From an uncultured Bacteroidales bacterium (lineage in GTDB: Bacteria; Bacteroidota; Bacteroidia; Bacteroidales; FEN-979): a DNA stretch of 64,000 bases. Made by a program: the position numbers and the translations under genes. Location of the stretch: contig CAIMWF010000103.1 in the NCBI GenBank assembly GCA_903845055.1, positions 1 through 64,000 of the forward strand, read 5' to 3'. A model generated the notes under the pieces. The model made no database searches, had not been told where the DNA came from, and was given only the letters and a program-made list of their open reading frames with translations. Below, piece after piece: positions 27,140-45,639 of the stretch. Numbering within the stretch: position 1 is the first letter of the stretch; each line of letters opens with the position of its first letter.

Positions 27140-28222
27140 ATGAAAAAATACTGCATTTGCCTGGCTCTCCTCTTGCTGTTCACCGGCTTGAAACCCGATG
27201 GAAAGGTGCGGAAGCCGGTCGATCCGGTTGGTTTTGCAACCCGGGCATGGCAGATGGATTCGGTGATGAACCGCATTGAACGGTTGCAGGGCCGTAGAAT
27301 CGCCGATTCGCGGAGGCGCACCGGGGTTGGGAAAACCACGGCATGGAAGGTGGCCATCTGTCCGCATGATGATTATACCTACGCTGGTTGGCTTTACCCT
27401 GTTGTTCTGCAGAATGTCAAAGCAACAACGGTCATCTTGGTCGGGGTGGCCCATAAGGCGAAAAAATTCGGGCTGGAGGATAAAATGGTATTCGAAAGCT
27501 ACGATCACTGGCAGGAGCCTTATGGCCCGGTGAAGGTCTCCATCCTTCGTGAAAAGATATTGAACCAGTTACCAAGGTCGGCTTATGTCGTTCATGATTC
27601 CATGCAACAGGCCGAACATTCGGTTGAAGCGCTCATTCCATTCCTGCAGTATTACAACCGCAACGTTGAAATCGTCCCGGTGCTGATCCCATACATGTCC
27701 TTCGACAGGATGAATGCTCTGGCGGGAACCCTGTCGCTGGCCCTGATGCAGGTGATGAAAGATCTCGATCTGACCTGGGGAAGGGATGTGGCCATCGTGA
27801 TATCGACCGATGCCGTTCATTACGGCGATGAGGAATGGGGCGGACAGAACTATGCGCCCTACGGGTGCGACAGCGCGGGATACAAGTCCGCACTGGCCCA
27901 TGAATATGAAATTATCTCAGGCTGCCTCCTGGGAGGGCCAACGGTGAACAAAATGAGGCAATTCACCGTATATACCTTACAGGACACCAATTTCAGAACC
28001 TATAAATGGACCTGGTGCGGACGGTATTCCGTTCCTTTTGGTCTGCTGACCGCCTGCAAACTTGAACAATACCTGCGTTCGAACCCGCTGAAGGGCGAAT
28101 TGCTTGGTTACGGCACCTCCATCATGGACGCTTCCCTCCCTGTGGATGACCTGAAAATGGGAAGAACTGCCCCGGCCAGCCTTCATCACTGGGTCGGGTA
28201 TCCATCTATCGGTTATAAATAA
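27140..28222 (+). CDS. Exported MEMO-family protein (AmmeMemoRadiSam B-like)
   Basis: A 360-residue protein with an N-terminal signal sequence (MKKYCICLALLLLFTG). The MEMO fold follows, related to class III extradiol dioxygenases. Putative metal and active-site motifs are kept: CPHDDYTYAG, VGVAHKAKK, AEHSVEALIPFLQYY, STDAVHYG and the cysteine in WTWCGRYSV. Unlike the second MEMO protein in the window (44047) it has no AMMECR1 domain and no radical SAM gene beside it. It is 8 bases ahead of an OsmC gene, so a joint redox-related role is possible but inferred. MEMO function in bacteria is unknown. Confidence 0.83.
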   Translation: MKKYCICLALLLLFTGLKPDGKVRKPVDPVGFATRAWQMDSVMNRIERLQGRRIADSRRRTGVGKTTAWKVAICPHDDYTYAGWLYPVVLQNVKATTVILVGVAHKAKKFGLEDKMVFESYDHWQEPYGPVKVSILREKILNQLPRSAYVVHDSMQQAEHSVEALIPFLQYYNRNVEIVPVLIPYMSFDRMNALAGTLSLALMQVMKDLDLTWGRDVAIVISTDAVHYGDEEWGGQNYAPYGCDSAGYKSALAHEYEIISGCLLGGPTVNKMRQFTVYTLQDTNFRTYKWTWCGRYSVPFGLLTACKLEQYLRSNPLKGELLGYGTSIMDASLPVDDLKMGRTAPASLHHWVGYPSIGYK

Positions 28223-42875: not shown

Positions 42876-42908
42876 TAGTCACTCGTCACTCGTCATTTGT
42901 CATTCATT
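42876..42908 (-). repeat. GAGTGAC units at the radical SAM 3' end
   Basis: On the minus strand the stop codon TGA (42902-42900) lies in GAATGA-type units followed by AATGACGAGTGACGAGTGAC. This is the same repeat, in the same orientation relative to its own gene, as after the convergent EEP gene at 42141. Confidence 0.85.
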
Positions 42909-43928
42909 CCATCTTCCCTCAATCGCCGTACCGCATTCCGGGCATCTCCACCGGCAGATCCGGTTTCCCATGACAATAAAGCCGGAACGCCTGACAAGTA
43001 AGGCATTGCAGCCGGGGCAAATGGTATTTTCCGAATCCGCCCCCGGAACATTGCCAAGGTAAACAAAGCGGATTCCCTCCTTCAATGCGATCTCCCGGGC
43101 CTTCACCAGCGATGACAGCGGCGTGGCCGGTACACCACCCATTTTATACATGGGGTGGAACCTGCTGAAATGCAAGGGTGTCCCTGAAAATCCATGGGTG
43201 GCAAGCCATCCGCACATGCGGGCGATCATCTCAGGGCGGTCGGTGATACCGGGGATCAGCAGGTTGGTGATCTCAAGCCAGACTCCCTCCTCTTTCAATA
43301 CCTCCAGGGTGCGCAACACCGGTTGCAGGCTTCCGCCAAACAATGTTTTGTAGGTTTCCTCCGAAAACGCCTTCAGGTCGATGTTGGCGGCATCGGTAAC
43401 TTTCGCCAGTTCTTGCAAAGGCTGTTCCTCCAGGTAGCCGTTTGATATGAGCAGGTTCTTCAGCCCGGCAGCCCTTGCCAATTTGGCGGTTTCCAGGGCA
43501 TATTCGAAAAAAACGGTGGGTTCGGTATAGGTAAAGGCAACGGATTGGCATCCTTCCCTTGCTGCTGACGCAACAACCTGTGCGGGGAACAGTTCCAGGT
43601 GCGGAATGCTGTCGGGACTTTTCTGCGAGATTTCCCAGTTCTGGCAGTTCCTGCAGCGCAGGTTGCACCCGGCCGTTGCGATCGAGAAACAGGAAGAACC
43701 CGGGAGGAAATGAAACAGCGGTTTCTTTTCAACGGGGTCGATGTGCGCTGAACACGGGTTGCCATAGGCGATGGTATAAAGTTTCCCGCCTGAGGCGAAA
43801 TGGGTGTGACAGATGCCTGTCATCCCTTCGCGAAGCGTGCAATGGTGCGGACAGAGTTCACAACGGACATGGTCCCCTGCAACCGTGTACCAGGCCGATT
43901 CGCGCGTATATTTTCCCGAAATATCCAT
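42900..43928 (-). CDS. AmmeMemoRadiSam system radical SAM enzyme
   Basis: A 342-residue radical SAM protein of the PflA-like group in the AmmeMemoRadiSam system. The cluster motif is CNLRCRNCQNW (C88, C92, C95). An N-terminal cysteine set (CELCPHHCTLREG...GIC: C23, C26, C30, C40) and a C-terminal zinc-ribbon-like set (CPGC and CPEC) flank the barrel and may hold additional metal. The reaction is unknown. Co-occurrence with MEMO and AMMECR1 proteins, encoded 118 bases away on the other strand, defines the system. The start at 43928 is preferred over a frame start at 44000 because the -7 box (TAACTTTG, 43998-44005, minus strand) overlaps the latter. Confidence 0.9.
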   Translation of the reverse strand: MDISGKYTRESAWYTVAGDHVRCELCPHHCTLREGMTGICHTHFASGGKLYTIAYGNPCSAHIDPVEKKPLFHFLPGSSCFSIATAGCNLRCRNCQNWEISQKSPDSIPHLELFPAQVVASAAREGCQSVAFTYTEPTVFFEYALETAKLARAAGLKNLLISNGYLEEQPLQELAKVTDAANIDLKAFSEETYKTLFGGSLQPVLRTLEVLKEEGVWLEITNLLIPGITDRPEMIARMCGWLATHGFSGTPLHFSRFHPMYKMGGVPATPLSSLVKAREIALKEGIRFVYLGNVPGADSENTICPGCNALLVRRSGFIVMGNRICRWRCPECGTAIEGRWNE

Positions 43929-43975
43929 TGCTCGACTTTGCCGGGCAGCCGATTGATTTTTCGGCCTGCCTTTCG

Positions 43976-44005
43976 TACCTTTACATTGAATTTCATTCAA
44001 AGTTA
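43976..44005. promoter_or_regulatory. Divergent promoter pair with central palindrome
   Basis: TACCTTTA (43976-43983, plus, one mismatch) faces TAACTTTG (43998-44005, read on minus). Between them lies the perfect inverted repeat TTGAAT-TTC-ATTCAA (43986-44000), a candidate operator placed to control both AmmeMemoRadiSam transcripts at once. Confidence 0.5.
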
Positions 44006-44046
44006 CGACGAATCATCTCACAGAACAAAAGCGGGGACAGCGATTG

Positions 44047-45639
44047 ATGTTTAACCCATTCAAACCATTGAAATACAGACATATTCTATTTATAACCCTT
44101 TTCATGATGGGAACATTCTTTGATTTCGGCCATGGGGCAGCGGCGCAGGACAAACCGGGAAAGGGTGACAGGAAACCCTCGGCCGCAGGGCATTTTTACC
44201 CGGGCAGCCAGGCAGAATTGAGCCGAACCCTTGCCGGGCTGTTTTCCGCTGCTACGCCCTGTAAATCGCGCCATGTGCTGGCCGTGGTGGCACCGCATGC
44301 CGGGTTTGTCTATTCGGGCATTGTTGCCGCCAGCAGTTACAACCAACTTGATCCCGGAAAAGAATACGACAACGTTTTCGTGATTGGATCGAGCCATTAT
44401 GTTGCCTTCGACGGTGCTTCGGTCTATGACCGGGGAGATTATGTTACGCCGCTCGGGAAGGTCCCCGTGAACAAGGAAATAGCGGCAAAACTGATGGCCC
44501 CCGGCCGTTTGTTTTCCTTTCACGCCGAAGCCGACAGCAACGAACACTGCATCGAGGTGCAGGTCCCGTTCCTGCAATATCACCTGAAAAAGGGGTTCAG
44601 GCTGGTACCCATTGTCATAGCCACGCAATCAGAAGCCACCTGCCGGTCGGTTGCTGAAGCCCTGAAACCTTTCGTCAACGAACGCAACCTGTTTGTTTTC
44701 AGCACCGATTTTTCTCATTATCCATCCTGGGCCGATGCGAAGGTCACCGACAAGGCCACCTGCGATGCAATCGTGGCAGGGAGTCCCGGCAAACTGGTTA
44801 AATTCCTCGATTCTTATAAGACCAGCCGGATCCCCAACCTGGCCACCAACCTTTGCGGCTGGACCTCCATCCTGACCATGCTGTACATGTTCAGGGACGA
44901 CCCGGCGATAAAGATCACACCGGTGAAGTATATGAACTCGGGAGACTCAGAAAATGGTGACAAACAGCAGGTGGTGGGTTACTGGTCGCTCGTGGTTACC
45001 GGTCCGGAACCACAGGAGACCGGTTCAGCAGTCCTGCATGATCCGGCCGGGGCAGGTCATGGTACAGGGACCTTTGATTTCAGCCCGTCGGATAAGATCC
45101 TGATGTTGAAGATTGCACGAAAAACCATCATAAAGTATGTTGGCGAGCGAAGGGTATATGAACCCGACTTTCCCATCCCCGATGGCTTGAAAATTCATGC
45201 AGGAGTCTTTGTGACCCTGAAAAAACACGGCGAACTCCGCGGCTGCATAGGCCGGTTCACAGCCGACCTGCCGCTATACAGGCTGATCTCCGAAATGGCA
45301 ATCGCTTCGGCTACCGAAGACAGCCGCTTTGACACGGTAAAGCTAAAGGAACTCGGGAGCCTGGAGATCGAGATCTCGGTATTGTCGCCGCTAAAGAAAA
45401 TCCAGTCCCCGGGGGAGATTGTTCCGGGCCGGCATGGCATCTATATTAAAAAGGGAAACCGTTCGGGAACATTTTTGCCCCAGGTCGCCATGGAGACCGG
45501 TTGGAACCGTGAGGAATTCCTGGGACATTGCGCACGCGACAAGGCAGGTATCGGCTGGGATGGATGGAAGGATGCCGAAATTTACACCTATGAAGCCTGT
45601 GTTTTTTCCGAAGATGAGTTTAACGGCAGCAAAGATTGA
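44047..45639 (+). CDS. MEMO-AMMECR1 fusion protein of the AmmeMemoRadiSam system, exported
   Basis: A 530-residue two-domain protein. An N-terminal signal or anchor (HILFITLFMMGTFFDFGHG, about 12-30) precedes the MEMO domain (about 42-320). Its putative metal motifs are APHAGFVYSG (H84), GSSHY (H117), NEHCIEVQVPF, STDFSHYPSW and the cysteine in NLCGWTSIL. The AMMECR1 domain (about 340-525) has the hallmark LRGCIGRF and EIEISVLSPL. Domains A and B of AmmeMemoRadiSam are normally separate genes or fused as here; function is unknown. The export signal is notable because the divergent radical SAM partner has none. The start is ATG 44047, not the preceding TTG. The 3' end overlaps AddB by 20 bases. 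Confidence 0.9.
   Translation: MFNPFKPLKYRHILFITLFMMGTFFDFGHGAAAQDKPGKGDRKPSAAGHFYPGSQAELSRTLAGLFSAATPCKSRHVLAVVAPHAGFVYSGIVAASSYNQLDPGKEYDNVFVIGSSHYVAFDGASVYDRGDYVTPLGKVPVNKEIAAKLMAPGRLFSFHAEADSNEHCIEVQVPFLQYHLKKGFRLVPIVIATQSEATCRSVAEALKPFVNERNLFVFSTDFSHYPSWADAKVTDKATCDAIVAGSPGKLVKFLDSYKTSRIPNLATNLCGWTSILTMLYMFRDDPAIKITPVKYMNSGDSENGDKQQVVGYWSLVVTGPEPQETGSAVLHDPAGAGHGTGTFDFSPSDKILMLKIARKTIIKYVGERRVYEPDFPIPDGLKIHAGVFVTLKKHGELRGCIGRFTADLPLYRLISEMAIASATEDSRFDTVKLKELGSLEIEISVLSPLKKIQSPGEIVPGRHGIYIKKGNRSGTFLPQVAMETGWNREEFLGHCARDKAGIGWDGWKDAEIYTYEACVFSEDEFNGSKD

Follow-up and report, generated by a model that had tools for sequence, protein, structure and literature searches.

A reduced form of a predicted exported AmmeMemoRadiSam variant in a Bacteroidales genome

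The AmmeMemoRadiSam set of AMMECR1, MEMO and radical S-adenosylmethionine (SAM) proteins is encoded at a compact divergent locus of an uncultured Bacteroidales bacterium (GTDB FEN-979). The locus lies in a stretch of 64,000 nucleotides (assembly GCA_903845055.1, contig CAIMWF010000103.1, positions 1–64,000, forward strand), which is referred to here as the window. The radical SAM enzyme (42900..43928, minus strand, 342 residues) carries no export signal, and across a divergent intergenic region of 118 bases (43929..44046) lies a single protein of 530 residues (44047..45639, plus strand), predicted to be exported, in which MEMO and AMMECR1 are fused. Read from the sequence, the radical SAM gene starts with ATG at 43928 and the fusion with ATG at 44047, for which TTG at 44044 is a possible alternative.

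Profile searches placed all three domains over the family cut-offs. The radical SAM protein scored 360.7 bits with TIGR04337 (cut-off 220), and the fusion 229.1 bits with TIGR04336 (cut-off 26) and 166.1 bits with TIGR04335 (cut-off 99), in agreement with the Pfam families Radical_SAM, Memo and AMMECR1. A complete three-domain set, with MEMO and AMMECR1 as one protein divergent to the radical SAM gene, had been proposed in a first-pass annotation of this DNA, and the profiles and coordinates bear it out. The MEMO domain comprises residues 42–317 on TIGR04336 (44170..44997) and the AMMECR1 domain, with its LRGCIG motif, residues 353–520 on TIGR04335 (45103..45606), both on the plus strand. The radical SAM enzyme has retained CxxCPxxC, CxxxCxxC and two C-terminal cysteine pairs; with the start at 43928, the cluster C88/C92/C95 of the first-pass annotation is the CxxxCxxC motif, and the N- and C-terminal cysteine sets that it listed are present. 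The glycyl radical enzyme activases (PFL-activase, YjjW) are the nearest other radical SAM families by score, but the window enzyme falls well under their cut-offs and has the extra N- and C-terminal cysteine sets. TIGR04335, TIGR04336 and TIGR04337 are hypothetical equivalogs, whose family definitions name no reaction. The window genome (95% complete) holds one radical SAM match over the cut-off, one AMMECR1 domain and two MEMO domains. The second MEMO-family protein (27140–28222, plus strand, 360 residues; MEMO domain 27332–27835, 83.5 bits with TIGR04336) is also in the window, with a signal-like start and with the His, His and Cys ligand positions retained.

The fusion begins with MFNPFKPLKYRH-ILFITLFMMGTFF-DFGHGAAA followed by QD, i.e., a basic n-region, a hydrophobic core and an AxA-type end. 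From the sequence, the orthologues and a helix in the structural model, a signal peptide is predicted at residues 1–33 (44047..44145, plus strand), with the inferred cut between A33 and Q34. In a comparison of 41 genomes, window included, the fusion protein was matched in 34 and 30 carry the fusion; two of these fusions are incomplete, one lying on two contig ends (G001) and the other having a broken frame (G016). Judged by eye, the N-terminus is signal-like in 30 of 30 fusion-bearing genomes, the window included, and follows one pattern in all of them, in which basic residues lead into a hydrophobic stretch and then either AxA-Q or a cysteine followed by S-x-Q or similar. The hydrophobic export signal of the first-pass annotation, for which poor conservation in orthologues had been named as the damaging outcome, is thus retained.

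An AlphaFold2 model of the fusion (mean predicted local distance difference test, pLDDT, 80.9; predicted template modelling score, pTM, 0.56) shows a helix at residues 9–30 with a low-confidence linker after it, and its PDB matches are MEMO1 (7kq8) and the AMMECR1-family structure 1vaj. Human MEMO1 is an intracellular protein. Its structures (7kq8, 3bcz) share the fold of the window MEMO domain with a template modelling score of 0.83 by target length; human MEMO1 is unfused, whereas the window MEMO is predicted to be exported and is joined to AMMECR1. The fold is likewise shared with the archaeal AMMECR1-family structures 1vaj and 1zq7, which are stand-alone proteins while the window domain is fused. 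The iron ligands of human MEMO1 are given as H49, H81 and C244 in a passage of PMC11081632, and these align with H84, H117 and C270 of the window protein. Among 85 MEMO sequences, of which five are unfused and two genomes are represented twice, the columns are conserved in 84 (H84, one gap), 85 (H117) and 83 (C270). The two histidines and the cysteine of the iron site are retained in the window, and metal binding is predicted.

The clue to the missing signal of the window enzyme comes from its relatives. In all 20 relatives with a further gene for a membrane protein at the locus, the radical SAM enzyme begins, by eye, with KRxF and a mild hydrophobic stretch, as expected of a signal for twin-arginine translocation (Tat), and this Tat-like N-terminal extension is missing from the window protein. 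TatC was found in 40 of the 41 genomes, the window genome included. In contrast to this variant, AmmeMemoRadiSam members without signals, such as L080, L082 and most of the loci in the phylum sample below, look cytosolic; the genes are adjacent in both, but the window variant is exported, by prediction, and fused, and its full form adds the membrane partner.

This third gene is present in 20 of the 41 genomes, and no copy of it was found anywhere in the window genome. Its product is a polytopic membrane protein that contains a spermidine-synthase-like domain (PF01564). The gene usually lies between the fusion and the radical SAM gene; the locus is split over two contigs in G030 and G036. PF01564 was over the cut-off in 4 of 4 membrane proteins tested, and the best PDB matches are spermidine synthases. 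Among 62 complete membrane-protein sequences, E309 and D336 (L063 numbering), presumably the nucleoside-binding Glu and Asp that hold the adenosine part, are invariant (62 of 62 each). A model of the 831-residue L074 protein (pLDDT 82.6, pTM 0.82) has three helices in an N-terminal extension, seven before the central domain, which matches spermidine synthases, and six long ones after it, of which the last spans 57 residues. With 7 + 7 helices drawn by hand, a weak method, the loops on the N-terminal side hold 0.18 Lys/Arg per residue versus 0.07 on the other side, which places the domain in the periplasm; the central domain is thus predicted to face the periplasm. The N-terminal bundle of about 100 extra residues is found in 8 of the 62 sequences (L073, L074, L075, L120, L121, L126, L132 and L135). 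By eye, three histidines are common to 8 of 8 of these long Bacteroidota proteins and a fourth is found in 6 of 8. Their likeness to DUF4405 is below the cut-off (E 0.037, 0.61 and 2.5, with no match for a fourth protein), and a role in haem binding is no more than a lead.

To judge how general the exported variant is, simple rules were used, whose matches were also counted among 836 other open reading frames (ORFs). A strict Tat rule matches 5 of the 836, and misses real-looking signals in L139 and L165 and fails on the stretch after the motif in L122. A loose Tat rule was set aside because it matches 97 of 836 unrelated ORFs; L252, a loose-rule match, was judged false. A simple rule for general secretion (Sec) signals matches 274 of the 836, membrane proteins included, and for this reason the fusion signals were judged by eye. 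The rule finds a signal in 32 of the 43 fusions of the named set described below; of the 11 misses, 10 look signal-bearing by eye and the other, in L126, is cut by the contig start. L126 is from Mangrovibacterium marinum, a cultured environmental carrier whose locus has a Tat-like enzyme and the membrane gene as well as the fusion.

In a phylum sample of 296 genomes, 66 (window included) hold the radical SAM family at E 1e-50. With the window and two matches under the cut-off excluded, these gave 72 loci, of which 70 were assessable and two incomplete; the search for MEMO, AMMECR1 and the membrane gene reached no further than ~6 kb from the radical SAM gene. The strict Tat motif was observed in 5 of the 70 loci, all with an exported fusion and the membrane gene, while none of the other 65 has a strict Tat motif, an exported fusion or the membrane gene within that distance. 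Two of the 65 carry a fusion without a signal. The signal status of enzyme and MEMO, called by rule, agrees in 23 of 23 loci with MEMO nearby. In L190 and L191, MEMO-AMMECR1 fusions without a signal adjoin signal-free radical SAM genes; fusion by itself does not imply export.

A second, named set comprised the best 80 loci by radical SAM similarity, a sample biased to the exported variant. The strict Tat motif is present in 49 of 79 (triple fusion aside) and, taken alone, was seen in eight named phyla. RRxF is found in 26 of the 80 loci and KRxF in 24, L106 having both. A fused MEMO-AMMECR1 is in reach in 43 of 80 and the membrane gene in 52 of 80. A Tat signal (here by the loose rule), the fusion and the membrane gene occur together in 28 loci from six named phyla, namely 15 Bacteroidota, three Ignavibacteriota, three Thermodesulfobacteriota, one each from Pseudomonadota, Planctomycetota and Omnitrophota (L185, Sec-like by eye), and four unassigned records. 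In L180 (PKTB01000021.1, 5453–7957, plus strand, Marinilabiliales), MEMO, AMMECR1 and the radical SAM domain form one protein of 834 residues behind one signal-like segment, which is the strongest single sign that the three domains share an outside compartment. A TatC-like gene is present in 5 of the 80 loci (two Pfam-confirmed), adjoining the radical SAM gene in L129, L152, L171 and L182. A DsbD/CcdA-like gene was found in six, all Omnitrophota (L144, L157, L162, L163, L170 and L185; two Pfam-confirmed).

Further features of single loci may be recorded here. Tandem radical SAM genes, one with and one without a Tat-like signal, lie beside an exported fusion in L075 (318–2489, minus strand). 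The genomes G031 and G038, which carry the exported set, also hold signal-free paralogous operons elsewhere. CxxCH was considered as a c-type haem site in the radical SAM proteins, but in the 25 sequences that contain it nearly all occurrences fall within the C-terminal cysteine sets and were taken as meaningless. L220 and L221, from one genus, have CxxCH after the Tat signal and ahead of the radical SAM core, as a possible c-type haem site.

Taken together, we read the locus as an exported variant of AmmeMemoRadiSam that is reduced in the window, with export and activity as predictions, and we put the probability of this reading at about 0.75. The first-pass annotation had noticed an exported fusion beside a seemingly cytosolic partner and had offered a membrane anchor or a transient meeting as explanations. 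Neither is likely to be the background, since 20 of the 30 fusion-bearing genomes have a predicted exported enzyme and the membrane partner, which makes the window a reduced derivative.

In the full version, the three products would be at the outer face of the inner membrane. The fusion would be exported by Sec, often with a lipoprotein-like cysteine, and tethered by its lipid or by the membrane protein. The radical SAM enzyme would be exported by Tat, which moves folded, cofactor-loaded proteins. The membrane protein would serve as a docking site and as a holder of SAM or its nucleoside product. In the most likely scheme, a membrane-borne substrate would be modified by the radical SAM enzyme together with the iron site of MEMO. 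We infer the location, topology and ligand of these products, and a membrane-borne or envelope component as the substrate is a guess. As a tentative proposal, at somewhat less than even odds, a complete radical SAM machine would work outside the cytosol in six named phyla (by rule) and modify an envelope component. Its parts would be a Tat-exported enzyme, an iron-binding MEMO-AMMECR1 protein that is likewise exported and, at the periplasmic face, a membrane protein with SAM or its nucleoside product bound. In some versions, electrons may arrive by a path of their own, through the haem-like bundle of the membrane protein or a DsbD/CcdA-like gene nearby.

The reduced form was followed through the family of the window. 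Nine family members (G000, G001, G002, G004, G005, G013, G014, G015 and G016) carry the fusion and lack the membrane gene genome-wide, and the signal of the radical SAM enzyme is absent in 7 of 7 whose start is readable; G015, at a contig end, and G016, with unread bases, were not counted. The cysteine near the end of the fusion signal is found in none of these nine, compared with 14 of the 15 family members that have the membrane gene (Fisher p 7.6e-6, uncorrected for kinship). Among the five order-level genomes with the membrane gene, it is present in G030 and G036 and not in G031, G037 and G038. In G022, the fusion, the membrane gene and a radical SAM gene over the cut-off are all absent, and a weak MEMO match remains. 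This gene content, the signal-like segments, the conserved residues and the co-loss are read directly from the sequences.

In an rpoB tree, which covers seven of the nine family genomes without the membrane gene (G005 and G016 gave no rpoB match), these genomes are scattered; five changes are needed, at least three of them forced, and a single clade is rejected (approximately unbiased, AU, test, p 9e-6). A tree of the locus, with G015 unlabelled, needs two changes and does not reject loss in a single clade (AU p 0.097). On the rpoB tree, the loss of the membrane gene and the enzyme signal is recurrent. In the lineage of the window, both were plausibly lost at once through a single deletion of DNA lying between the divergent promoter and the core of the radical SAM gene. 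The fusion, having no cysteine, would then become soluble in the periplasm and the enzyme would stay in the cytosol, and on the sequence features this is probably the present state in the window. Within the clade of the window, dN is 0.21–0.31 with dS saturated or ~1.9. Both genes are under selection against amino-acid change and have kept their metal and cluster residues, so the reduced form is not one in decay.

What the two partners do in the reduced form is the subject of the alternative that survives best. The lineage of the window may be decoupled, with the fusion alone in the periplasm and the enzyme either engaged in a separate cytosolic job or acting on a precursor before export. The window lacks both the enzyme signal and the membrane gene, its genome has no other AMMECR1 and only a single further, signal-bearing MEMO, and selection against amino-acid change persists in the clade, all of which suit decoupling. 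Nevertheless, the two genes share a divergent promoter block and have kept their cysteine clusters and iron ligands, which suggests a pair that is still needed together. We regard decoupling as having close to an even chance; it is compatible with the exported-variant reading and concerns the reduced version only.

The Tat-like segments may instead be Sec signals or N-in anchors, so that the enzyme would be outside without arriving there folded. Sec-like or anchor-like segments are indeed seen in L144, L146, L149, L157, L158 and L170 (by rule) and L185 (by eye), the Bacteroidota relatives among the compared genomes have KR rather than RR, and the Tat profiles match weakly. The RRxF motifs in 26 of the 80 named loci point the other way, as do the TatC-like genes adjoining the radical SAM gene in four loci of that set, and we consider this alternative unlikely.

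Still less credit is given to the membrane gene being an ordinary polyamine aminopropyltransferase with an incidental neighbourhood. Its PF01564 scores and best PDB matches are what such an enzyme would give. However, DxxDP, which we take to be the acidic catalytic loop of spermidine synthases, is mostly changed: the first position is Asp in only 9 of the 62 sequences (Asn in 36) and the second in 16 (Glu in 25), while a family-specific P-x-T-x-Q-x-N-R motif is near-invariant. Moreover, the membrane gene is confined in the phylum sample to the five loci that also have the Tat signal and the exported fusion. Membrane-fused spermidine synthases (PRK03612-like, NF002956) are also polytopic with PF01564 and keep the adenosine-binding residues, but four locus proteins tested score 79–129 bits with NF002956 against an equivalog cut-off of 472, have mostly lost the acidic loop and are linked to MEMO-AMMECR1. 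The idea that the fusion N-terminus is an uncleaved anchor, with MEMO and AMMECR1 left in the cytosol beside the radical SAM enzyme, would fit the signal-free window enzyme and the same mismatch in L130, L136 and L154, but is highly improbable in view of the basic residues ahead of the core (N-in, C-out), the segment end at AxA-Q or a cysteine, the Tat-like signal on the enzyme in 20 relatives and the triple fusion with one signal for three domains.

Several observations weigh against the exported variant as read here. The signals were identified by inspection and with simple rules rather than with SignalP, and Pfam TAT_signal matches 1 of 3 enzymes tested below the cut-off (E 0.0061), which is weak support; TIGR01409 matches the same enzyme, 1 of 4 tested, again below the cut-off (E 0.11). 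In the named set, a signal-free enzyme stands, by eye, beside an exported fusion in four of the 43 loci with the fusion (L115, which is G013, L130, L136 and L154) and beside the membrane gene in three of 52 (L154, L179 and L183), and in L169 and L176 it has neither in reach. The mismatch of the window thus has parallels outside its family in L130, L136 and L154. The cysteine is present in 16 of the 20 genomes with the membrane gene, being missing in G012, G031, G037 and G038, and its preceding residues, as in NQGC, are a poor match to the classic lipobox. In G027, which has no membrane gene, the fusion carries the cysteine and a signal-free radical SAM gene lies elsewhere. The loss of the membrane gene and of the Tat signal counts as one fact because one deletion could remove both; the absence of the cysteine is a second fact beside it. 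Tests on independent pairs were not significant, with three usable pairs, a number at which no sign test can reach significance. The loci come nearly all from metagenome bins, and a few have archaeal labels. A periplasmic radical SAM enzyme would need SAM and an electron donor there. Finally, the partners in the window itself are still predicted in different compartments.

The intergenic region carries features of two back-to-back promoters. Both boxes were compared with TAnnTTTG, which we take to be the -7 consensus. The box towards the radical SAM gene, TAACTTTG (43998..44005, minus strand), is a perfect match, and that of the fusion, TACCTTTA (43976..43983, plus strand), a near-match. The region also holds a perfect palindrome, TTGAAT-TTC-ATTCAA (43986..44000), the only exact match in the window; with up to two mismatches, eight matches are found versus 5.46 expected, and 18 of 100 shuffles reach eight. 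Of the shared control region in the first-pass annotation, described as a palindrome between two -7 boxes, the palindrome and the minus-strand box stand, while the plus-strand box is only near. The shared divergent promoter itself is supported, since 16 of 23 family genomes have a block GTA[CT]CTTTA ahead of the fusion. The palindrome fares otherwise in the survey of orthologous loci that had been suggested: among the 23 family genomes only two, the window and G005, have it exact and two more have it with one mismatch, and it is exact in 2 of 7 loci of the same short layout. Its absence upstream of close homologues, which the first-pass annotation had named as counting against it, is thus largely what was observed. 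As a conserved operator it was rejected, and it looks like a by-product of the two promoters. A scan for sigma-70-type promoters and terminators gave nothing in the control region, and in an Rfam search of the window no RNA family reached its gathering score.

The three families are already known; the exported variant with a Tat-like enzyme and a membrane partner appears to be new. A search of the open-licence literature returned no paper on an exported AmmeMemoRadiSam, a Tat-exported radical SAM enzyme or the membrane partner. The key comparative paper, by Burroughs and colleagues (JBC 2019), may already mention parts of the exported variant. The passages seen of PMC7159879 link MEMO with AMMECR1 and radical SAM in print and cite that paper, and those of PMC12710340 and PMC10924467 hold nothing on export of AmmeMemoRadiSam.

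SAM and strong reductant are generally regarded as cytosolic, which makes radical SAM chemistry outside the cytosol unexpected. MEMO1 and AMMECR1 are human proteins, and we know of no molecular function for AMMECR1. The primary molecular function of MEMO1 is called unknown in the abstract of PMC11081632. A bacterial set whose members share one compartment, and in one case one polypeptide, makes the function of MEMO and AMMECR1 testable, and an exported set narrows the substrate to something that can be reached from the periplasm, with the membrane partner as a new lead. Export is unusual for oxygen-sensitive radical SAM chemistry, and it could help to reveal what MEMO and AMMECR1 proteins do.

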